A DNA stretch of 64,000 nt from Azospirillum lipoferum 4B. GTDB lineage: Bacteria > Pseudomonadota > Alphaproteobacteria > Azospirillales > Azospirillaceae. Positions 51,365-63,516 of this stretch are shown here, piece after piece (positions within the stretch are counted from its first letter, which is position 1; every line of letters starts with the position of its first letter). Made by a program: the position numbers and the translations under genes. The stretch covers positions 67,001-131,000 of the forward strand of contig NC_016585.1 of NCBI RefSeq assembly GCF_000283655.1. Direction: 5' to 3'. Under the pieces are notes generated by a model, which was not told the origin of the DNA, ran no database searches, and saw nothing but the letters and a program-made list of their open reading frames with translations.

Positions 51365-51800
51365 TCAGTTGAGCCAGATGACAGCCGACACGAGGTAAAC
51401 AGCCGCCAAGAAAGTGCTGGCAAGCTTGTCGTATCGAGTTGCAATGGCTCGGAAGCCCTTCAGCTTGTTGAAGAATCGCTCGACGAGATTACGTTCGCGG
51501 TACAAGGCGAAATCGGTATCGCGGGCGATCAGCCGATTAGCCTTGGACGGGATGACGGGGACGATGTCGCGCTCCTTCAATGCGTCGATCAGGGCGTCGC
51601 CATCATAGGCCTTGTCGGCGATGAGGGCCTGCGGCTCGACCGCGTCGAGCAGAGGGGCGGCTTGGCTGAAGTCAGAGGCCTGACCGGGGGTCAGGGAGAT
51701 CGCCACCGGGTTGCCCAAGGCGTCCACGATGGCATGGATCTTCGTCGTCAGCCCCCCTCGTGATCGGCCGATGGCTTGGCAGGCGCCCCCTTTTTTCGCG
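51365..51800 (-). CDS. IS5/IS427 transposase, second frame (OrfB, made by frameshift)
   Basis: C-terminal DDE transposase part: GGLTTKIHAIVDALGNPVAI, second Asp in ALIADKAYDGDALIDAL and Glu in RERNLVERFFNKLKGFR. It has no independent start of its own near this region; the full enzyme is expected from slippage at the A6 G5 run joining OrfA to OrfB. All three catalytic acids are present, so the IS may be active. Confidence 0.88.
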
Positions 51801-52119
51801 CCCCGGCGCTGTGCTGGTGGGCGCGGACGATGGTCGCGTCGAGCATCATGTACTCGTTGTCGCTGTCCTCGGCCAGGGCTTTGAAAAGGCGCTCGAACAC
51901 CCCGCTCTCGCACCAGCGGCGGTAGCGGCGGTGGGTGTTCTTCCAATCCCCGAACCGGGTGGGCAGGTCGCGCCAGGGAATGCCAGCCCGGTAACGGTAC
52001 AGCACCGCCTCGACGAACAGGCGGTTGTCCTTCGCCGTCCCCCCGACATGGCCTACCCGCCCCGGCAGAAAATCCTGGACCCGCTCCCACTGATCGTCGC
52101 GCAAAGCATAGCGTCGCAT
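51748..52119 (-). CDS. IS5/IS427 transposase, first frame (OrfA)
   Basis: A 123-aa N-terminal part: MRRYALRDDQWERVQDFLPG and GIPWRDLPTRFGDWKNTHRRYRRWCESGVFERLF are the standard insertion-element DNA-binding domain, followed by the first catalytic Asp in YMMLDATIVRAHQH. The frame ends soon after a run of A6 G5 (51786-51796 on the plus strand as C5 T6), the likely slippage site for -1 frameshifting into OrfB. Confidence 0.9.
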   Translation of the reverse strand: MRRYALRDDQWERVQDFLPGRVGHVGGTAKDNRLFVEAVLYRYRAGIPWRDLPTRFGDWKNTHRRYRRWCESGVFERLFKALAEDSDNEYMMLDATIVRAHQHSAGARKKGAPAKPSADHEGG

Positions 52120-52335: not shown

Positions 52336-52409
52336 TGGGGGATCGTCTAGCGGTAGGACAGCGGACTCTGACTCCGCCAGCCTAGGTTCGAATCCTAGTC
52401 CCCCAACCA
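52336..52409 (+). tRNA. tRNA-Gln (anticodon CUG)
   Basis: A 74-nt tRNA including an encoded CCA. Acceptor stem TGGGGGA/TCCCCCA; anticodon stem-loop GCGGA-CTCTGAC-TCCGC with anticodon CTG; T-arm CCTAG-GTTCGAAT-CCTAG. The 3' end is followed 130 nt later by a site-specific recombinase gene, so the tRNA is the likely integration site of the element downstream. Confidence 0.97.
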
Positions 52410-52539
52410 ACTCTCACGACTTCCCTTTGGAAACAGCCACTTGGTTCCGCCGCTCCTGCAACGATCCGCAGGTGGTGCCCATGGTTGTAGCCCAAAGCTG
52501 CTGCCCAACGCGCCGCCCGGTCCCGTCAGAGTACCGAGC

Positions 52540-54684
52540 ATGGGCCAAGCCGCGCACCTCGTCCTCCGCCACCAGACTTGGCACTGGCGCCGCCGCGTTC
52601 CGTCTGACTTGCAGCTGACGTCTCCGCGCGGGAGACTAAGCCTATCGCTCGGTACGAGCGTCCTCCGAGCAGCCCGGCGCGTCGGCTTGGCGCTCGATCT
52701 GGCAATGGAGGACCTGCGCATGCTGCACGCACCGCTAGACCCCGCCGTGCTGACCTCCATCCTCGCTAAGGTGCGTGACGACGCCCTGGCCACCGAGCAG
52801 GCCGAACGCGCCCAGCAGCCGCCGGATCTGGGGTTCGTGCCACGCCCTACGGCGGCGCGCCGCATTGTCGCTCCGAAGGATCTCGCCCAGTCCCTGCTGC
52901 ACTGGCTGGCCCAACAAGGGTCGATGGCCGGCATCGACGACGCCGACCTGAAGGATCCTGACAAGGGCCGGGCCAACGGGATTGCGGCGGGTCCAACGGC
53001 CGACGCTCCTGCCCAGGACAGCAACGACCAGACCGCCACTATGGTGGAGGAGCCCGCCGACGGTGGGCCCGTCCACCGCGGCCTTTGGCTACCGCCGGAG
53101 CTGGACCGCGCCATTCGCGACTTCGTCGCCGCGAACCCTGCGCCGCCGGCAGAGTTGACAACGGCGCGCGCCGCCTCGACGATCCGCGCGACCATTGCCC
53201 AAGGCGTGCAGGGAGCGTACCTGGATGCCGCGCGCCGTAACGACCGCCAGATGGCGCAGGCTCATGTGCAGCGTGCTCTCGACGGATTTGAAGCGGAGGG
53301 CATCACCGTCCATCCGAACAGCCGCGGCGTCCTGGAGCGCCAAGCCTTGTCTGTGCTTGGCGCCGTGCATGGGCAAGCGGCTACGGATGAGCGTGAATTG
53401 CCGGAGATCGTGCTGACCTCGCCGGAGGCACTCCTCGTGCCTCGCCAGACGGTGGGTGAACCGGCAGCGGCCTTCATACCCGCCGCGGCGCCTACAACGC
53501 CTCCTGCTGCGCCCATGATCGGCAGGGCGGCGCCCACGATCACGGAGATGCTGCAGAAGTGCATCAAATTGAAGCGGGATAAGGGGTGGAACGATAAGTC
53601 CATCGCGGATGCGACCACCAGCATCCGGATGTTTGTCGAATATCGTGGCGATGTGCCCATCGACCAAGTGACGAGCGCGGACGCGAGCGACTACAAGGCG
53701 CTTCTTCTCGATGTGCCGAAGCTGGCTGGCAAAGGGAGGTTCGCGAAACTGACGATTACGGACTTGGTCGCCGAGGCGAATGCCCTTGAACAGGCCTTGA
53801 ACGACGAAGAGGTGGATCCGAACTCTGTGCATGGCATCTTTCGTGATGAAGACGATGACAGCTGGCACGTCGCACGCTACTCGCTGGCGACGGTCAACAA
53901 GCACATCAATTTCTTGAACGTGGTCTTCACAGCCGGAATGAAGTATCTGGACCGCAAGGAGGATGCCTCTGTCTTCGCCAGCGAGTACTATGACAAGGCG
54001 CTGGTCAAGGAGCATCGCCGGAAGCGGCTCGCGTACGAGGTGAATGAGTTGGAAAGCCTGTTCCGCTCACCCGCGTGGGCCGGCTGCGTCGACGATCGTT
54101 TGCGCGCCACGGCTTCCGACAGCCCGCCGCCGCGCGACGCCCGGTTCTGGGGTCCCCTCATCGCCGCGCACCAAGGAATGCGGCTGGAGGAGATCCTCCA
54201 GTTGCAGACGGAGGATGTCGACGAGGAGGACGGCATCGCCGTCTTCCGCATCCGGAAAGGTGCGGGGCGGAAACTCAAGACCGCGGCGAGTGCTCGCACG
54301 GTACCCGTCCACTCTTCGTTGATCCGGATCGGTCTCCTGAAGTATGCCCAAGCCCGTCGGGCCGAGGGTTCTCCCCTGCTTTTCCCGGAGTTGAAACGCG
54401 GCGGCGGCTTCAGCACGTACGGCCACGCGTACAGCCTGTGGTGGACGGAGTACCGCCGAGCGATCGGGATTTACAAGCCAGGACTGGATTTTCATAGCTT
54501 CCGCACGACGGTGAATACCCACCTTCTGCGCCGCCGATGCAACGAAACAATGATCAAGGCACTGCTCGGCCACAGCATCGCCGGTGACATCACCACGGAC
54601 GACTACAACGCGGGTCTCAGCCTCGCCGATCTGCAGCAGGCTCTGGACCTCTGGCAGTTCGATATCAGCTATCTGGATGTCTGA
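52540..54684 (+). CDS. Tyrosine recombinase/integrase with DUF6538-like N-terminus
   Basis: A 714-aa site-specific recombinase. The N-terminus (HLVLRHQTWHWRRRVPSDL) matches the DUF6538-type domain seen in some phage and island integrases. A long linker region follows, then a SAM-like core-binding domain (about residues 325-510) and the catalytic domain. Visible catalytic residues: Arg in AHQGMRLEEILQL, His-x-x-Arg in LDFHSFRTTVN, His in ALLGHSIAG and Tyr in TTDDYNAGLSL. Its position right after tRNA-Gln marks the start of an integrated element. Start 52540 is preferred over 52441 because the DUF6538-like sequence begins there; the longer reading is also open. Confidence 0.9.
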   Translation: MGQAAHLVLRHQTWHWRRRVPSDLQLTSPRGRLSLSLGTSVLRAARRVGLALDLAMEDLRMLHAPLDPAVLTSILAKVRDDALATEQAERAQQPPDLGFVPRPTAARRIVAPKDLAQSLLHWLAQQGSMAGIDDADLKDPDKGRANGIAAGPTADAPAQDSNDQTATMVEEPADGGPVHRGLWLPPELDRAIRDFVAANPAPPAELTTARAASTIRATIAQGVQGAYLDAARRNDRQMAQAHVQRALDGFEAEGITVHPNSRGVLERQALSVLGAVHGQAATDERELPEIVLTSPEALLVPRQTVGEPAAAFIPAAAPTTPPAAPMIGRAAPTITEMLQKCIKLKRDKGWNDKSIADATTSIRMFVEYRGDVPIDQVTSADASDYKALLLDVPKLAGKGRFAKLTITDLVAEANALEQALNDEEVDPNSVHGIFRDEDDDSWHVARYSLATVNKHINFLNVVFTAGMKYLDRKEDASVFASEYYDKALVKEHRRKRLAYEVNELESLFRSPAWAGCVDDRLRATASDSPPPRDARFWGPLIAAHQGMRLEEILQLQTEDVDEEDGIAVFRIRKGAGRKLKTAASARTVPVHSSLIRIGLLKYAQARRAEGSPLLFPELKRGGGFSTYGHAYSLWWTEYRRAIGIYKPGLDFHSFRTTVNTHLLRRRCNETMIKALLGHSIAGDITTDDYNAGLSLADLQQALDLWQFDISYLDV

Positions 54685-54892: not shown

Positions 54893-55168
54893 TCAGCCCG
54901 CAAGTTCAGCAAGCAAATTCGCCACGCGCAGCCGTGATATCAGCCACATGCGCTCATGGCCTGACAGTTCACGTTGGCTGCATTTGTCGCCGAACAGAAT
55001 CATCACGGCACCGTCAATCCGAGTGATTGCTGTTTGTATTTTCTCCACGTCTCTTGACGGCTCCCCCAGGTCATTGACAAAACACAGATCATTCAAGCAG
55101 TCGCCGCAGATCATTACGACCAGTCGCTGGCCTCCCAAGCGGATCACCACATCGCCCCGCTCAATCAT
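54893..55168 (-). CDS. Island protein ending in the [S/T]xHERM motif (91 aa)
   Basis: Unrecognised 91-aa protein. Its first part is beta-rich with three Cys (MICGDCLNDLCF), and its last 23 residues form a helix-like tail SGHERMWLISRLRVANLLAE that carries the motif repeated in four other genes of this element. GGAG lies about 6 nt upstream of the ATG. Monocistronic or part of a minus-strand run; a large palindrome lies upstream of it. Function unknown. Confidence 0.6.
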   Translation of the reverse strand: MIERGDVVIRLGGQRLVVMICGDCLNDLCFVNDLGEPSRDVEKIQTAITRIDGAVMILFGDKCSQRELSGHERMWLISRLRVANLLAELAG

Positions 55169-55340
55169 CTATCACTCCGCGCCGTTTTCCGAAGCCGCAA
55201 TCTGGAATTCGCACCGCGCCCAACCTGTTCGGTGAGGTCGAGTGGGCACGCTTCATTTTCCGTTCCGAGGGTGCCGCCCGCGAGTGCGCTTGCCGGCCAC
55301 GGCGCACGGCCGTATGGCAGGCAGGCTACGACCGGTTCAT

Positions 55341-55378
55341 GCCATCCCCCTCACCGGTGTACCGGTGAGGGGGATGGC
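55341..55378. other. Perfect 38-nt palindrome (18-bp stem, 2-nt loop)
   Basis: GCCATCCCCCTCACCGGT-GT-ACCGGTGAGGGGGATGGC lies between two small minus-strand genes of the element, 18 nt after the end of one and 172 nt before the start of the next. It is too perfect for most terminators, and the T-rich run (GATTTGTTTG) lies on the plus-strand side. It might be a terminator, a protein-binding operator or a hairpin acting in DNA processing. Confidence 0.7.
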
Positions 55379-55396
55379 GATTTGTTTGTGGTCGGA

Positions 55397-56074
55397 TCAG
55401 CACTTTTTGGGAGCGGCCAACCGGTGGAGACGCATGCGTTCGTGTGCCGACATCGTGTCCCCGGCGTCGTCGAGGGCCGCCTTGGCTGACCGCCGAATGA
55501 CCTGGCCGAAGCGCTGCCATAACACGTCGATGTCCACCAAGGAGAGCGCCCCGAGGTCATCCAGGAGGCGCACGGCCGCGCGCACGCGGGCGCGATGCGC
55601 GTTGTGCAGGTGAGCGACGTGGTCGAGCGACCGGCAATGCGTCATCTGCGGATAAGGATAGGCCCGCGATGGCGAGCGGAGCCCGGCGCAGCAGGGGAAA
55701 TGCTCCTCGGCCCAGAACCGGCCGGCACTGTCGAACCGCCCGGGCGGATGAGTTTGTCGGTCGCGCCGGCTGACATAGGTCCGGGCTCCAGCGATCTCGT
55801 CGGCCTGGAACCCCAACGCCGTGAGGATCTCCTGCACCGTCAAGGAACTGGACATCGCTCTGATTTCGCCGGTGATCCTGTCAGTGATCGTGTTGGTCGC
55901 CCGCGCGGCGTCGGGCTGCTCCGTCGAGGTGGGGGTGTTGGAGTGGGCGGCGCTCGCGGAGATCTGGTTCGGCTGCCACGGTCCCACCGGGGCGTTCTGC
56001 CGGTGAGCCAGGGCGTCGGTCACGTTCAAGGTGACCGGATCCTGCTCCGGCGCGGTCTTCGACATGATGGACAT
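55397..56074 (-). CDS. Island protein with C-terminal SAHERMRL motif (225 aa)
   Basis: Unrecognised 225-aa protein. Start at 56074 (MSIMSK) has GGGAG upstream; a TTG start at 56101 is possible. The N-terminal half is polar and probably flexible. The middle part has FPCCAGLRSPSRAYPYPQMTHC with several Cys/His, which might bind metal, and a helical region RARVRAAVRLLDDLGALS. The C-terminus ends DTMSAHERMRLHRLAAPKKC (motif at about residue 209). No domain can be named. Confidence 0.6.
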   Translation of the reverse strand: MSIMSKTAPEQDPVTLNVTDALAHRQNAPVGPWQPNQISASAAHSNTPTSTEQPDAARATNTITDRITGEIRAMSSSLTVQEILTALGFQADEIAGARTYVSRRDRQTHPPGRFDSAGRFWAEEHFPCCAGLRSPSRAYPYPQMTHCRSLDHVAHLHNAHRARVRAAVRLLDDLGALSLVDIDVLWQRFGQVIRRSAKAALDDAGDTMSAHERMRLHRLAAPKKC

Positions 56075-56150
56075 GTGGTCGCACTCCCGTGCTCGATCCA
56101 AGACAGGCCGGATGCCCCATGTCGAGGCATCCCTCGTTCTGGAGGCGGCT

Positions 56151-56801
56151 CTACCAGCCGGGGTAGTGGGAGAGCAGCATCAGCGCGTCGCTCCAGGCGT
56201 CGGGGGCCGTCCGTCGCAGGATCCCGAGCGCATCAACGGCGCCGATGCGCAGGGTGCGCTTGGCGACGGCGCGCAACATGTTGGCATTGTACAGGCCCAG
56301 CAGGACCAGGGCGGTGATCCGTCGCACTGAATCCGCGTGTCGCAGGGCGCGGGCGTACGCTTCGAGGTCGATCGGGCGCAGGTCGCAGTGGGTTCCGCTC
56401 CGGCCGGAGCGGCGCCATAGGCCCGACAGCCCTTGCTGCTCGATGATACGGTCCGCCGAGGCGCTGAAGTGGGGCCGCGTCCCGCCGCGGAAGCCTGCCG
56501 GCGGGACGCTGCCGACGATCGCCGTCTGCTCCCGGTGGTCGAAGCACATCGCCTTGTCCACCAACCAGCCGAGGCTGTAGGGCTCGGCGGGAAAGCGCAG
56601 GCGGGCGTACTCCTCGTCCAGCGCCGCGAGTGTCAGGACGCCGACCGCTTCCAGGGTGTCGTGATGGATGCGGTCCGGCCAGACCTCGACCGCGCCGTCG
56701 GTCACGGCTATCATGGTAATGCCGAGCGCGGACGCGCCGCGCAGACCCGCCAGCGTGCTGGCGGTGATCCCGTCGAGCGGGTACGGGATGGTGGGGTGCA
56801 T
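56151..56801 (-). CDS. Island hypothetical protein (216 aa)
   Basis: Unrecognised protein. Start at 56801 has an excellent CAGGAGG 6 nt upstream. The sequence alternates helical and beta-like stretches: GVLTLAALDEEYARLRFPAEPYSLGWLVDKAM, then DLEAYARALRHADSVRRITALVLLGLYNANMLRAVAKR. No signal peptide or motif. It lies 76 nt upstream of the SAHERMRL-tailed gene on the same strand and may be co-transcribed with it. Confidence 0.6.
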   Translation of the reverse strand: MHPTIPYPLDGITASTLAGLRGASALGITMIAVTDGAVEVWPDRIHHDTLEAVGVLTLAALDEEYARLRFPAEPYSLGWLVDKAMCFDHREQTAIVGSVPPAGFRGGTRPHFSASADRIIEQQGLSGLWRRSGRSGTHCDLRPIDLEAYARALRHADSVRRITALVLLGLYNANMLRAVAKRTLRIGAVDALGILRRTAPDAWSDALMLLSHYPGW

Positions 56802-57255
56802 GACCGCCTCCTGTTGACGCCGACGTGGGCCCATCCCTCGTTTTGTGGCGTCACGTTCAGGGTGCTCCGGCGCTCCGCCTCGCGGTCTACTCGTTCTTCC
56901 TCTGAGGAACTCTTGCGTAAATAAATGTCTTGACTACAGCGGAATCTGGGTTTCCCCCGTGCCGGTTGACCGTGCAACAGGTCGGCGAATCACCTCCATC
57001 TCCTGAAGTTGTTTGACAGCTGACTGCGGGAACGGCCCTTCGGACGCCATTGGGCGCTACTCCAAGTGCGGTGGACGTCCTGAACTGAATGACAGGTCCG
57101 AGAATCGCACGTTGATGTGCATTTCCCCCCTTGCTGATCGGAGGTCGACGTCCCATCCCCCCTTGCGGAGGAGGGTTCTCGTAAACGGCATGTTCCGGAT
57201 ATGGGGCAGGCCTTTCCTCCATGCCGGTGCTCTCGAGATGATGGAGGCTGCTGCG

Positions 57256-57765
57256 ATGGATGAAAGCAAGGGCATATCGAACGTTGAAACGGATGTCGGT
57301 GCTGAGGATGGTCTCGCTATCGTGACTGCCCTCATGGAGCGCGTCGAATTCATACGGGAGCAGATCGACGAACTCATTGGTATACACATAGGACCGATAC
57401 ACGCCTTGGGTCCGCGCATCGAAGCAGAGGTGTGGCAACTCATTGAGCAAGTGATCCAAGCAGAGTACAACATAGAATGCGCGCAGGTGCGCTACTTACA
57501 CGGGCCGGTACATTACGTGGTGGAGTTCTGCTATGAGTGCAATGCGCTGCACTGGGTGCCTGCACCGACCCATGATGATGATGATATCAAATGCACATGC
57601 ACCTTCTGCGGCGAACCGATGCGGATGCCCGAAACTGCGCACGAGCGCATGCAGGCCGCGCACGCGACCCAAAGCAGTGAGGTGAACCTACCTTTTGCGC
57701 ACTATTGGGGAAGAAGGCTGGATCTCGACTCTCGCTCTTTGATCAGATCCATCAGTCGTGATTAA
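57256..57765 (+). CDS. Island protein with zinc-ribbon-like cysteines and TAHERM motif (169 aa)
   Basis: Unrecognised 169-aa protein, the only clear plus-strand member of the group. The N-terminal half is helical and acidic (TALMERVEFIREQIDELIGIH). A zinc-ribbon-like set follows: CYECNALHW...KCTCTFCGEPM (two CxxC). The TAHERM motif comes directly after (about residue 126), and a 37-residue tail with basic residues ends the protein. GGAGG lies 9 nt upstream of 57256; in-frame ATGs at 57241 and upstream also exist. Confidence 0.55.
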   Translation: MDESKGISNVETDVGAEDGLAIVTALMERVEFIREQIDELIGIHIGPIHALGPRIEAEVWQLIEQVIQAEYNIECAQVRYLHGPVHYVVEFCYECNALHWVPAPTHDDDDIKCTCTFCGEPMRMPETAHERMQAAHATQSSEVNLPFAHYWGRRLDLDSRSLIRSISRD

Positions 57766-58206
57766 ACGACTCACTGATCCAGAGCGGTGATGATAACCCT
57801 GGATGGGGCCATCGTCATTCCGGATCAAGTTCGGGATACCCTTCATGGCCCTTGCTGATGGCGATCAGTCGGTACAGGGCCACCCTGAACTCCGACCCGG
57901 TGTGGATCGGCCAGGCTCTTGTCCCTCAGCCGATCAGTGACGTACTGCAACGAGGCAAGCGGGGCAAGAGATTGCTCTTGCCCCCTGATGATCAGGATCC
58001 AAGGACGGTCGCCGCGTGTCCGAGATTGACCGTGCACTTGAGGGCCGCGACACCGACGGCCACCTTGGCGGTCTGCGCTTGGCCGCAGTAGAAGCGCGGC
58101 GTGTCGCCAAGGATGCCCTTCGAGCGTGTCACTTGTCTCTCCACGCCAAGTCCACGATACCGACTATATCCGCGCAATACGGCGGTGCATGTTCAAGCCG
58201 GACCGC
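57766..58206. other. Gene-poor spacer in the element
   Basis: About 440 nt with no convincing complete gene. Its middle carries what may be the degraded end of a transposase on the minus strand (see separate entry). Confidence 0.4.
57992..58177 (-). pseudogene. Possible remnant of a transposase C-terminus
   Basis: On the minus strand this stretch reads GVERQVTRSKGILGDTPRFY then TAKVAVGVAALKCTVNLGH, resembling the C-terminal pattern of some IS transposases (a basic stretch, then TeVaV..LNrMl.LGrP). There is no ribosome-binding site and no upstream catalytic domain. If correct, it is a decayed insertion sequence in the island. Confidence 0.3.
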
Positions 58207-58518
58207 TCAGAGGCGTAGACGGACCAGATCATGCTGTATGCTGGCAGCCAGATGAGCCAGCAGCAATGACTCGGGATCGGCTGTAGTGGCTGTTTGACGT
58301 AAGCGGATGGACAAGACCAGGAGCTTCGCCTCGGCATCCATCCAATTCGTCGCCGACAGTTTCATCAAGCTTTCCAGTGCGTCGGCAATGCGATCGGAGC
58401 GGTCGGCCGTTTCTTGTTCATTTTCAATACAGTCAGTCGGACAGTTATCGACCATCCATCGGTGGGCGAGGCGTCCAATCGGCGTTTCCTGGCGATCCCT
58501 GCTGTCGGAAAGTAGCAT
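58207..58518 (-). CDS. Island hypothetical protein (103 aa)
   Basis: Unrecognised, mostly helical 103-aa protein (SDRIADALESLMKL...AEAKLLVLSIRLRQTA). AAGAAGG lies about 8 nt upstream. It starts 15 nt after the stop of the preceding minus-strand gene, so it is probably the last gene of the operon that runs from about 60 kb. The C-terminal AHLAASIQHDLVRLRL is only faintly like the shared motif. Confidence 0.55.
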   Translation of the reverse strand: MLLSDSRDRQETPIGRLAHRWMVDNCPTDCIENEQETADRSDRIADALESLMKLSATNWMDAEAKLLVLSIRLRQTATTADPESLLLAHLAASIQHDLVRLRL

Positions 58519-58533
58519 GACAAGGCCTTCTTC

Positions 58534-58989
58534 TTACGAGGTCCGGTCGAGCCAGTCGAGTTGATCGGCGACCGCCTCGTCGCTCAATCCGGCCGCGGCA
58601 AGCAGTCCGGCCAGTCGCATGCGTCCATGGGCGCTGTAGGCCAGGGCAAGGATCCGTTTAGCCTGCCGTGCTGCGGCCGCTTGCGACAGACTGATGTCCA
58701 CCTCGTCAATCCCCGAGGCCGAGAGTGCCGCGCGGATGTCCAGGAATACGGCAGCGACGGAAGGCGGATAGGTCAGGGTGTCGGGGGCGGTGATGCTGTA
58801 AGAAATACTCTTCCCGAAGCGGATGATCCGCCGCGGCAGGAAAGCGGGAAAAGGTGCATCATCAACCCTCACCCACAGCTTGCCGTCTATGACATGGGGG
58901 CTGACGCCGACGACAAATCTCTGAGGCACAATGGCCTGGACGATGCGTTGAGCCGCTTCCCTGTCGGCGGCGGTGTAACAGCGGGCCAT
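58534..58989 (-). CDS. Island protein with SAHGRMRLA motif (151 aa)
   Basis: Unrecognised 151-aa protein. An alpha/beta N-terminal half (TAADREAAQRIVQAIVPQRF, WVRVDDAPFPAFLPRRIIRF) is followed by a helical C-terminal half with the motif SAHGRMRLAGLLAAAGLSDE (from residue 119), which looks like two helices with a turn, as in an HTH. It starts 10 nt after the Cys-rich gene ends and is followed 15 nt later by another gene, so it is mid-operon. Confidence 0.6.
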   Translation of the reverse strand: MARCYTAADREAAQRIVQAIVPQRFVVGVSPHVIDGKLWVRVDDAPFPAFLPRRIIRFGKSISYSITAPDTLTYPPSVAAVFLDIRAALSASGIDEVDISLSQAAAARQAKRILALAYSAHGRMRLAGLLAAAGLSDEAVADQLDWLDRTS

Positions 58990-58999
58990 GATCAGGGTC

Positions 59000-59275
59000 C
59001 TATTGGTTTTGACGTCCCCGGCGCGGCCAGCGGGACGGCAGTAAGGTCAGATACGTATCCGGGTCGAGGTAGTGCGGCCGTCGCCGCATCATTGCGATAC
59101 GGCAGCGGCTGCAAAGTCCGAAGGTATCGGTATCGTCAGGCGGTCCGACGATGAGCCAAGTTTCAGGACCGGCGCGGTCCTGATCGTGCCAGATGCCGCA
59201 ACGCGCGCATCGACAGGTCTCGGCGGACGATGGCACGTGCTTCATCAGAGAGGGTTTCGTCCGCCGCATGGTCAT
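59000..59275 (-). CDS. CxxC-CxxC island protein A (91 aa), paralogue of the 60.5-kb gene
   Basis: A small Cys-rich protein with CARCGIWHDQDRAGPETW (Cys23, Cys26) and FGLCSRCRIAMMRRR (Cys55, Cys58), a probable zinc ribbon, and a basic C-terminal RWPRRGRQNQ. It is clearly related to the protein encoded at 60480-61022 (shared CARCGxWxDQDRxGP, GLCxxC, WPxRG). The ATG overlaps the stop of the LuxR regulator (ATGA), so the two are translationally coupled. Confidence 0.7.
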   Translation of the reverse strand: MTMRRTKPSLMKHVPSSAETCRCARCGIWHDQDRAGPETWLIVGPPDDTDTFGLCSRCRIAMMRRRPHYLDPDTYLTLLPSRWPRRGRQNQ

Positions 59276-60009
59276 CAGCGTTTCTCACCCTGTTCAGTTG
59301 AGCTCATCCTGCGAGCCGCAGCGCCCAGCACGGGAAGCAAGCGAGCAACCGCCATTGCCCTGTTGCTGACGCCGAGCGTCCGAAAGACCGCGGTGAGATG
59401 CACCTTGACCGTCCCTTCGGTCATCCCGAGCGTGGCAGCGATGACCTTGTTGCTGTGGCCGCGCGCCAGTTCCGCCGCAACCTCCTGCTGCCTTGCGGTA
59501 AGAGCGAACGCAGAGCCGGGGTTGTTGGGCAAAGCCGCGCTCTCATTCGGATCGATTGCCTCTGTTGCAGGCCAGCACCAGCCGCCGGCAAGGACCAGTT
59601 GGAATAGGCTGGCGCACAACGTGGGCGCTTCCGTCCCGGTCAGGAGTCCGCGTGCTCCGGCGGCCCGCAGCGTTGCCAAACCACCGCCTCCGCAACCTCC
59701 AGCAGCAAGGAGAACTCCGGCCTGTCTGTGCTCGACCAGTGCCGTCACCTGTGGTGTGGTCAGGCCGACCGTTGCGGCATGGATGATGATGAGTGCCGCG
59801 GCCGGTCCAGCCATCGCAGCGTCCAGGCTGTCGTGTGCCTCTATGGTGTCAATGGAATCGACCTGCCCGAGCAGCACGACGATGCCCTGCAAGGCAAACC
59901 GGTCGCTGGCGATAATGACGGCGGTTCTTGGTGTGGGCAGCGGGTGATCCTCGACGACATGTGGCGTTTCGTTCGTTGGAACCGGGAGGCCAAACAGTGA
60001 GTCGGGCAT
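59275..60009 (-). CDS. LuxR-family regulator with a degenerate receiver domain
   Basis: A 244-aa regulator. C-terminal LuxR/FixJ-type HTH: FALTARQQEVAAELARGHSNKVIAATLGMTEGTVKVHLTAVFRTLGV (about residues 167-215). The N-terminal half has a receiver-like fold (TAVIIASDRFALQGIVVLLG...) but where the phospho-acceptor Asp should follow the beta3 strand there is ALIIIHAATVG, i.e. His/Ala, and the Gly-rich VLLAAGGCGGGG is unusual. It is therefore probably phosphorylation-independent or senses something else. GAGG lies 5 nt upstream of the start. Likely local regulator of the minus-strand operon. Confidence 0.85.
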   Translation of the reverse strand: MPDSLFGLPVPTNETPHVVEDHPLPTPRTAVIIASDRFALQGIVVLLGQVDSIDTIEAHDSLDAAMAGPAAALIIIHAATVGLTTPQVTALVEHRQAGVLLAAGGCGGGGLATLRAAGARGLLTGTEAPTLCASLFQLVLAGGWCWPATEAIDPNESAALPNNPGSAFALTARQQEVAAELARGHSNKVIAATLGMTEGTVKVHLTAVFRTLGVSNRAMAVARLLPVLGAAARRMSSTEQGEKR

Positions 60010-60070
60010 TGCGACCTCATCTTGGATCAGGACGTGTTTAGGCGACGAGTGTTGCGAAGATCGAAGTGGG

Positions 60071-60370
60071 TCAGCCGACTACACGCGAAGCGTCATCCGT
60101 GCCGTCGATGCGGGCGATCAGATCCCGGGCTTGGCGGATCAGCCAGAGCGGCGCGTACTCGGGGTCATTGTCGGCTCGATCGACGATCGTCTCCGCCTGC
60201 TCCCTCGCAATGTCGACGTCACCAGCCGCGTGGTGGTGCAGAGCCGCGCGCAGCAGCAGGTCGGGACGACCGCCGTTGGCGGCGCAGTCGCGCTCCGCAC
60301 GCTCGGCAATCCGACGTAGCCGGCAGATGCGGGCGGCGGCGGATTCGAAGGGCGGTTGCATGGATTTCAT
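60071..60370 (-). CDS. Island hypothetical protein (99 aa), helical
   Basis: Unrecognised 99-aa protein, mostly helical with TPR-like spacing: AARICRLRRIAERAERDCAANG, then PDLLLRAALHHHAAGDVDIAREQAETIVDRADNDPEY. A single TPR-like repeat is possible. It lies 61 nt upstream of the LuxR gene on the same strand. Start 60370 or 60361. Confidence 0.55.
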   Translation of the reverse strand: MKSMQPPFESAAARICRLRRIAERAERDCAANGGRPDLLLRAALHHHAAGDVDIAREQAETIVDRADNDPEYAPLWLIRQARDLIARIDGTDDASRVVG

Positions 60371-60479
60371 GAAACTGGACCTGGATTGATTGACGGGGTG
60401 GCGTCCGGCTGGACCGCGGCGCCGCAGGGCGCGGCCGCGGTCCGGCCGGATGCCGCCCCGTCCACGCTCTCCTGGTCGT

Positions 60480-61022
60480 TCATTCCAGGTTCAGGAGGTC
60501 GGATTGATGCTGGCTCTGACACTCGGCGCCTCGCCCGCGTCCGCGCGGGCGGGTGATCGTGGTGGACGGCTCCGGCCGGTCATCGAGCGGCTCAGTCGAT
60601 GATGCCGGTAGACAATACTGCTGAGTCTGCGCCGCAACCTTCTCGGCTCTCTGCGATCTCAGTCCTCGCTTCGGCCATCCTGCCGACAAGCTTTCCATGT
60701 AGTCGTAGACATTCAGCGACCCCTCCCGATGGGCGTGCCGGTCGATCTCGCGCATCACAACGTGATGGCACATTCCGCACAGGCCATACTCGCCGGCACA
60801 AAGCCACATACCGGGGCCGAGACGGTCCTGGTCCCGCCACATTCCGCAGCGGGCGCAGCGGTCCCACGGACCATCGCTGCCTGCGGTGAACTTTGTCACG
60901 GATGGCAGGGTCCGCCTCCACCATCTCCGCTGGGGAACGACATCGCCGCAAGGCCGACGCGGAATGATGCGATACTCCGGATCAAGTGTTCTGAAGCCGG
61001 AAATCACACCGTCTTTTGTCAT
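60480..61022 (-). CDS. CxxC-CxxC island protein B (180 aa), paralogue of the 59.0-kb gene
   Basis: Cys-rich protein with CARCGMWRDQDRLGPGMW (Cys56, Cys59) and YGLCGMCHHVVMREI (Cys82, Cys85), then LSAGWPKRGLRSQ. The same order and signature appear in the 91-aa protein at 59000-59275. Here an N-terminal basic extension of about 50 residues (RRWWRR) and a C-terminal low-complexity tail of about 60 residues are added. GGAG lies about 8 nt upstream. Probably zinc-binding, perhaps nucleic-acid-binding given the basic flanks. Confidence 0.65.
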   Translation of the reverse strand: MTKDGVISGFRTLDPEYRIIPRRPCGDVVPQRRWWRRTLPSVTKFTAGSDGPWDRCARCGMWRDQDRLGPGMWLCAGEYGLCGMCHHVVMREIDRHAHREGSLNVYDYMESLSAGWPKRGLRSQRAEKVAAQTQQYCLPASSTEPLDDRPEPSTTITRPRGRGRGAECQSQHQSDLLNLE

Positions 61023-61180
61023 TGCTTCTTCTCCGTTTCAACCATCGTTGTCTTCCTTGGTCATTCGGTTCCTGTGGTGGAGCCTCCTGAACTGCGCAAT
61101 CTATTGGTGTCGGCGAGTGGCGACATATCTGTGCGTAGCGGTCGCCAACTCCGAACGAGATGATAGTAAACTCCCATTTA

Positions 61181-61582
61181 CTACGTCTTCGCAGTTTGTT
61201 GATCGATGGCGGCGGCAAGCCGCATCCGTTCGTGGGCAGTTAGTGTCCACTTTTTTAACGAGTCTTCCCAATGCGGAGTATTTGGGCTGTAGCCGAAGAT
61301 GTTTGAAAAGAAGTGTCCCCATTCCCACCAGTGCTTGATGTACTCATCACGATACATATCTATGGCGCTCCACATGACGGCACGGCTGATTTCGACCAGC
61401 CAATCCACGCTGGGGCCAAACGTCAGATGGCAGGTTTCACCGCCTGTGATGCAGAACGAACCATCCGATCCGATACTTGATACCAGGATCTCGACATTTC
61501 CTGGGGAACCCTGGTCTGATGAGACGGCCAGAATGCTCAATGCCACATCGCACGGTGAGCAGTTGAAGAAGGTCAGTGGCAT
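61181..61582 (-). CDS. Island protein ending in TAHERMRLA motif (133 aa)
   Basis: Unrecognised 133-aa protein. The first 60 residues are beta-rich (LTFFNCSPCDVALSILAVSS); the middle is aromatic (HWWEWGHFFSNIFGY). The C-terminus ends KKWTLTAHERMRLAAAIDQQ (motif from residue 115, 19 residues from the end). It starts 9 nt after the preceding gene, so the two are co-transcribed. No strong ribosome-binding site, which fits coupling. Confidence 0.6.
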   Translation of the reverse strand: MPLTFFNCSPCDVALSILAVSSDQGSPGNVEILVSSIGSDGSFCITGGETCHLTFGPSVDWLVEISRAVMWSAIDMYRDEYIKHWWEWGHFFSNIFGYSPNTPHWEDSLKKWTLTAHERMRLAAAIDQQTAKT

Positions 61583-63159: not shown

Positions 63160-63516
63160 CTATGGCCGCTTGCCGTCCGGACGCAGCAGGGTCAGGGCCT
63201 CGACCTGCCGGAGCGCCACCTCGGCTTCCCGGTCGCTCAGGCCGCGCAGCACCTCGCGCAGCCGCATGTCGGTGGCGGCCCGGGCCGGTGACACCACCGC
63301 CTCGCCGTCGTCGAAGAAGTCGACCAGCGGCACGTCCAGGCGGCGCGACAGGCGGTCGAGCGTCTCCAGCGCCGCTAGCACCCGGCCGCGCTCGATGTTG
63401 CTCACCGTCTCAACGCTGCGGTCGATCGCCGCAGCCACGTCCTCCTGGCTGAGGGCCCGGCTCTCGCGCAAGGCCCGCAACCGTTTTCCTATCCTACGTT
63501 TCAGGTCATCGCTCAT
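63160..63516 (-). CDS. XRE-family HTH transcriptional regulator
   Basis: A 118-aa regulator. Residues 8-62: Cro/C1-type HTH (RIGKRLRALRESRALSQEDVAAAIDRSVETVSNIERGRVLAALETLDRLSRRLDVPL). The C-terminus (about 50 residues, DREAEVALRQVEALTLL) may dimerise. Short size fits phage or toxin-antitoxin type repressors as well as chromosomal ones. Convergent with the upstream membrane protein. Confidence 0.88.
   Translation of the reverse strand: MSDDLKRRIGKRLRALRESRALSQEDVAAAIDRSVETVSNIERGRVLAALETLDRLSRRLDVPLVDFFDDGEAVVSPARAATDMRLREVLRGLSDREAEVALRQVEALTLLRPDGKRP

Follow-up and report, generated by a model that had tools for sequence, protein, structure and literature searches.

An Azospirillum island encodes unlike small proteins that share a short peptide near the C-terminus, a candidate docking tag

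The 64,000 nucleotides of Azospirillum lipoferum 4B analyzed here (contig NC_016585.1, positions 67,001 to 131,000; "the window," numbered from its first letter) hold an island at a tRNA-Gln gene, beside which lies the gene of a presumed island integrase, followed by small genes that mostly have no match in family libraries. Six-frame and open reading frame (ORF) readings place an [ST][AG]H[EG]RM motif in five island ORFs, here named A to E, within one 7 kb stretch, and all four HERM words in the six frames of the window fall inside the island (Table 1). The gene calls are ORFs, and their starts are uncertain: C begins inside a longer ORF, and relatives of B point to a start near an internal MSSSL rather than to the 234-residue ORF.

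Table 1. Features of the island and its surroundings, in window coordinates; "Motif" gives the word and its position on the strand of the gene, "After" the residues from the six-letter motif to the stop.
Feature	Coordinates	Strand	Motif	After	Details
Protein A, 91 residues	54893..55168	-	SGHERMWL, 54964	17	ORF; tail block SGHERMWLISRL at 54929-54964
Protein B, start uncertain, longest ORF to 56101	55397..55864	-	SAHERMRL, 55450	11	tail block SAHERMRLHRLA at 55415-55450; GC at third codon positions 0.82
Protein C, 169 residues, CxxC...CxxC zinc-ribbon-like stretch	57256..57765	+	TAHERMQA, 57634	37	tail block TAHERMQAAHAT at 57634-57669
Protein D, 151 residues	58534..58989	-	SAHGRMRL, 58635	27	tail block SAHGRMRLAGLL at 58600-58635, then 21 more residues
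Protein E, 133 residues	61181..61582	-	TAHERMRL, 61240	13	tail block TAHERMRLAAAI at 61205-61240
tRNA-Gln (CTG)	52336..52409	+			adjoins integrase gene
DUF6538 + Phage_integrase protein, presumed island integrase	52441..54684	+			PF20172 E 4.7e-11, PF00589 E 2.9e-10
Transposase-like gene	51365-52119	-			apparently split over two frames
Inverted repeat, near-perfect	about 55341-55379				just downstream of B; read by eye
CxxC protein	59000-59275	-			CARCGxWxDQDRxGPxxWL
LuxR-type regulator	59275-60009	-			GerE domain
Paired arms between small genes	60392-60462				two 34-nucleotide arms, 85% complementary, 3 nucleotides apart
CxxC protein	60480-61022	-			same family as 59000-59275
Helix-turn-helix (HTH) protein	63160-63516	-

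The five words are exactly those that a first-pass annotation had described, and its statement that four of the five lie within the last 33 residues also holds, C being the exception. The same annotation took the motif to be conserved at protein level over differing DNA, and this is borne out: the motif codons differ among A-E at most degenerate positions, and no DNA repeat extends over all five sites among the 20 of 46 direct-repeat families listed. Among 12 curated island proteins, HERM occurs in four and AHERM in three. A comparison of 10-residue blocks in 11 of these proteins (z2 being left out as a paralogue of z1) finds in five of them a block that reaches a BLOSUM62 score of at least 27 with LTAHERMRLA. 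As no more than three proteins shared a block in any of 300 shuffles, the sharing of the motif is not due to chance.

The background is scarce. A DNA pattern for WSNGSNCAYGARMGNATG, which also admits other first residues, has 23 matches on both strands of 61 genomes, 16 of them in 37 Azospirillum genomes of 5.5-9.7 Mb each and never more than two per genome of the genus; as far as the 23 can be read, their frames suggest either sequence unlike genes or unrelated proteins. Among 84,980 genomes the pattern [ST]AHERMRL occurs in 38 stretches, no title of which names Azospirillum (the search may omit records that lie very near the window), and the 23 stretches that read as this peptide stand 13 to 566 residues before the end of the frame, with no fixed place. 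The motif is therefore not equally frequent in unrelated Azospirillum proteins, the outcome that the first-pass annotation had named as fatal to its proposal. SAHERM also occurs inside a restriction-type helicase of five Azospirillum genomes (L003, L005, L007, L013, and L019; ResIII by Pfam, L003 alone being tested), 500 residues or more from the end.

Related islands lie on the plasmids pAB510e (L062) and pAB510a (L063) of Azospirillum sp. B510 and on a plasmid of A. brasilense (L064 and L112, taken as the same DNA, L112 alone being counted when tails are scored below). In the genome set, G005 is taken as B510 and G009 as the A. brasilense record, the coordinates coinciding. Three distinct orthologues of D, 73-75% identical, all carry SAHGRM. 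A search of 82 genomes found a single homologue of A, in G025, which is 44-46% identical and carries RELSSHERMW, while weak relatives of E with PTAHQRM or PTGHQLM ends occur in G009, G025, and G068. B has only weak matches in 45 genomes of the genus, and no convincing homologue of C was found in these genomes, plasmids, and phages. On pAB510a a further protein, which ends in PPPATAHQRMRDAAAISRHHKDNG, resembles DUF551 (Pfam PF04448), a phage accessory domain present in an Ea22 variant and in YfdS. The DNA pattern [ST]AH[EQ]RMR has six matches in the 45 genomes, four being tails of such DUF551-like proteins and two background. Two contigs retrieved with the pattern TAHQRMRDA are treated as chance: in L175 a small protein has RAHQRMRDAA, which lacks the S/T, close to its end, and L176 is not this peptide when read.

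A profile of 18 tails gives 15 matches at E of 4e-6 or below in 82 genomes of the order, in five genomes that are all Azospirillum; 13 of the 15 are rows of the profile itself, and the next best match (E 0.001) is read as noise. The matches include homologues of A and D as well as DUF551-like proteins that end in TAHQRMRDAAAI. An earlier profile of 14 rows had matched tails outside its own rows, namely the second B510 copy of the DUF551-like protein (E 1.3e-9), a D orthologue (E 8.2e-10), and a fragment in G027 (E 3.9e-4). A search of 385 genomes of the class, in which no more than 21 candidates were scored per genome listed, gave four weak matches with E between 1.9e-4 and 0.0045, and these are read as chance. 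Among the genomes searched the tail is thus restricted to Azospirillum, where its bearers are five of 45, a small sample.

In the fetched loci 20 tails, including the five of the window, score at least 26 bits, the next frame reaching 11.2 bits. That frame, the best non-member, is TAHGRM at 55299 (+), between A and B and opposite B, and is probably chance. Seven tails belong to DUF551-like proteins, four each to D and E-like proteins, two to A, and one each to B, C, and a protein with SAHARM in L115. In G025 a tail stands beside separate integrase, Prim-Pol, and HTH genes, and three more lie about 61 kb away on the contig. One A. brasilense ORF (L112:8231-9214) bears two, the first after a DUF551-like unit and the second after an E-like unit.

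Because 18 of the 20 scored tails had trained the model, a leave-family-out comparison is the cleaner test; here a whole family is removed, the rest serves as the profile, and each removed tail is ranked among 4,118 non-member frames. The DUF551-like tails rank first in six of seven cases, the A. brasilense copy's own tail coming second (7.8 bits), and all four D tails rank first. The E-like tails take ranks 1, 2, 5, and 131, the E of the window being first with 24.5 bits; B and C rank second each and the SAHARM protein sixth. On these ranks the shared tail links the DUF551-like proteins, D, and the E of the window firmly and B and C well; for A, the weakest of the five in the window, as for the SAHARM protein, the link is weak. 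For three pairs, profile comparisons locate the likeness at the motif or next to it: DUF551-like proteins and E align over the last 32 columns only, made up of the tail together with the preceding THW stretch (E 2.1e-6, probability 89%), A and E over nine residues, and DUF551-like proteins and D over 17. Of the 12 tail columns of the DUF551-like family 11 do not vary, as against 21 of 80 others (p 2e-5).

The tail-bearing DUF551-like proteins start with WQPIETAPRDG, end their domain with THWxPxPxPP, and match PHROG 924 (E 1.5e-5), and their homology to phage DUF551 proteins is upheld by tblastn (E down to 7e-6), by PHROG 924, and by 95 viral relatives. The L063 protein scores 17 bits with the Pfam model, below the cut-off of 22, over profile positions 46-67 of 68, and no PF04448 match is reported for the A. 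brasilense DUF551-like ORF. The best 80 of the 95 viral relatives were kept and all scored with the tail profile, 18 of these loci having no readable end. Unlike their Azospirillum counterparts none of the 80 has the tail, and none exceeds 5.8 bits. In the 62 with a readable end the stop falls 0-17 residues after the end of DUF551, mostly within 10, apart from one that continues for 46 unrelated residues; the closest approach to the tail, at 5.8 bits, is L177, which ends PPTAHGIGEKK. Four phage relatives, of 14 records, were read (Pam5, Kintu, CASP1, and VSN-002), as was one on a Paracoccus plasmid, and all five are without the tail. Homologues of the core of B occur in seven records of plasmids from Sulfitobacter and Loktanella, and the three that were read and aligned all end before the tail. 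Since relatives of two cores outside the genus lack it, the tail is, to judge from these sequences, a portable add-on conserved as a peptide.

The proteins that bear it do not form one known family, the other outcome that would have disposed of the first-pass proposal: A-E have no known family in Pfam, PHROGs, NCBIfam, or PADLOC, save that C has a match to a zinc ribbon below the threshold (E 0.78), and neither library scans nor profile comparisons unite them, with a possible remote kinship of D and E as the one reservation. The absence of obvious similarity claimed earlier holds generally, again except for D and E. Searches with the DUF551-like, D, and tail profiles for relatives of solved structure yielded three matches altogether, which are taken to be chance (best E 0.38).

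Several known systems offer points of comparison. The C-terminal sorting signals PEP-CTERM and LPXTG recur on unlike proteins within one genome, as the tail does, but the 20 tails, read by eye, show neither a membrane helix nor a basic anchor that is constant. SsrA and other C-degrons are short C-terminal peptides too; the tail differs in being encoded in the gene, in lying 11-37 residues inside the proteins of the window, and in having variable last residues, none of them conserved. The short terminal peptides that load unlike cargo proteins into encapsulins or bacterial microcompartments (BMC) provide a further likeness, as the tail too is a short terminal peptide and in the DUF551-like case follows a proline-rich linker. 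Encapsulin (PF04454) was found in none of ten genomes, five of them tail-bearing (three of 14 control genomes are positive), and BMC shell proteins (PF00936) occur in one of the five tail-bearing genomes, G068, and in one of the ten in all; a cargo tag of either kind is disfavored by this scarcity of shell genes together with the low amphipathic moment of the tail. The shell genes of G068 form a cluster (G068:C1:918804-926177). No description of such a tail was found in the literature, within searches of open-licence papers.

We prefer to think of the tail as a C-terminal tag of about 12-16 residues, with the consensus [ST]-[AGS]-H-[EQ]-R-M-x5-[LI], which has been attached to no fewer than five dissimilar small proteins of mobile islands in Azospirillum, is kept as a peptide by selection, and may serve for docking on a common partner, a reading that on the sequences at hand we hold to be about evenly poised between right and wrong. 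In this reading a short helix, capped by its S/T..E/Q start, would offer His, Arg, and Met to a single receptor and thereby bring different accessory proteins to the same place. A capping box S/T-x-x-E/Q is found in nine of the 11 tails examined, His and Met in all 11, and Arg in ten, these tails having been picked by the motif itself. The receptor would more probably be a host protein than an island protein, because the loci that carry the tail differ in gene content, one of them standing beside its own integrase and Prim-Pol genes. In a more specific version, for which we have some sympathy but which we consider doubtful, the His-Arg-Met helix would be a private label added independently to each protein and bound by one conserved host receptor, delivering its carriers to the same host machine. 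The first-pass annotation had spoken of a shared tag for docking, sorting, or degradation; the tail is indeed shared, conserved at protein level, near the C-terminus, and portable, whereas the choice among these roles, and the partner, remain conjecture. The presence of the tail, its conservation, its absence from relatives of two cores, and its confinement to the genus within the set of genomes searched are in contrast matters of observation.

A number of results weigh against a docking tag. The word-level shuffles alone are modest (about 0.01), as shuffling of residues places some four-letter word in at least four proteins 223 times in 20,000 and some five-letter word in three proteins 50 times in 20,000. 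Recovery after leaving out the family is poor for A and its homologue (ranks 12 and 92), for the SAHARM protein, and for the E-like copy at rank 131. D and E align over 90 columns (E 5e-4, hhalign probability 31.5%) and may share distant ancestry, so that the independent cores would be fewer. In the D, E, and A families conservation of the 12 tail columns does not significantly exceed that of the other columns (p 0.10-0.13), while over seven tail columns p is 0.18, 0.03, and 0.04, respectively. In D and in the homologue of A further sequence follows the block. The hydrophobic moment of the tail is low, 0.04-0.34 in the 11 tails, with shuffles reaching these values in 21-99%, and an amphipathic helix that binds a membrane or a shell is accordingly unsupported.

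A docking role is nevertheless preferred, at even confidence, and its main rivals are ancestry combined with fusion and a signal for sorting or turnover. In the first of these, D, E, and perhaps A would descend from one fast-diverging small domain, and the DUF551-like proteins, B, and C would have gained the motif helix by fusion; the helix would then be the conserved core of a domain and the tail a structural piece, not a docking tag. The 90-column alignment of D with E favors such descent, as does the likeness of E to its L115 relative over most of the length (E 5e-4, one comparison), and the A. brasilense ORF in which a tailed DUF551-like unit precedes a tailed E-like unit fits with fusion. 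The hhalign probability for D and E is low, however, and the three other pairs compared align over the short stretches given above, which leaves this account rather unlikely in our estimation. A signal read by a secretion coupling protein or a protease adaptor would agree with the portability of the tail and with its place near the C-terminus, but the distance from motif to stop varies and so do the ends. The C-terminus of D is LSDEAVADQLDWLDRTS, the last 17 residues forming an acidic stretch, where the ends of other tails are mildly basic; type IV secretion C-terminal signals are basic, and no end resembles LAA. We regard such a signal as improbable.

Coincidence, by which a common helix start, the S/T-x-x-E capping box, would have been met repeatedly by chance, might draw on the nine of 11 tails that fit the box and on the word shuffles that reach the count of HERM, but His and Met, which capping does not need, are invariant (in tails chosen by the motif), no block shuffle of the 300 equals the observed sharing, the background is scarce, and orthologues retain the motif, so that this explanation has very little to recommend it. 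Rickettsia palindromic elements are mobile DNA repeats inserted in frame into genes, and a repeat of that kind, suggested by the block in several genes of one island and by a 20-nucleotide family, 80-85% alike, spanning the sites of B, D, and E, is scarcely credible and as a DNA-level source of the motif is rejected, since none of the 20 of 46 repeat families listed extends over the five sites, the codons differ, and a single reading frame is used throughout.

The tag is defined by sequence alone across unlike cores, and its tail-less relatives provide natural controls; a receptor should therefore be fishable with a 16-residue peptide, and in a laboratory bacterium that is plant-associated and harmless. 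This would also open a way to the function of island proteins without a library match. Few portable short tags are known in bacteria, and for most of them the receptor was known first.

The surroundings of the tagged genes are in part shared with the related islands. At its end the window has matches on plasmids from B510 and from A. brasilense, a homologue of the integrase in L063 is 67% identical, and an identical tRNA gene stands beside a related integrase both there and in genome G068 (L111). Next to the tRNA-Gln gene of the window is the transposase-like gene, and frames related to it are found near the tRNA in L063 and L111. The inverted repeat downstream of B is likely a terminator. Each of the two CxxC proteins shares about 40% identity or more with one common set of relatives, found in the islands of B510 and A. 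brasilense, and the LuxR-type regulator has counterparts of 71-74% identity in two related islands and of 47% identity in a third. The HTH protein is 99-100% identical in three related loci; as its neighbors differ more, this near-identity suggests recent exchange.

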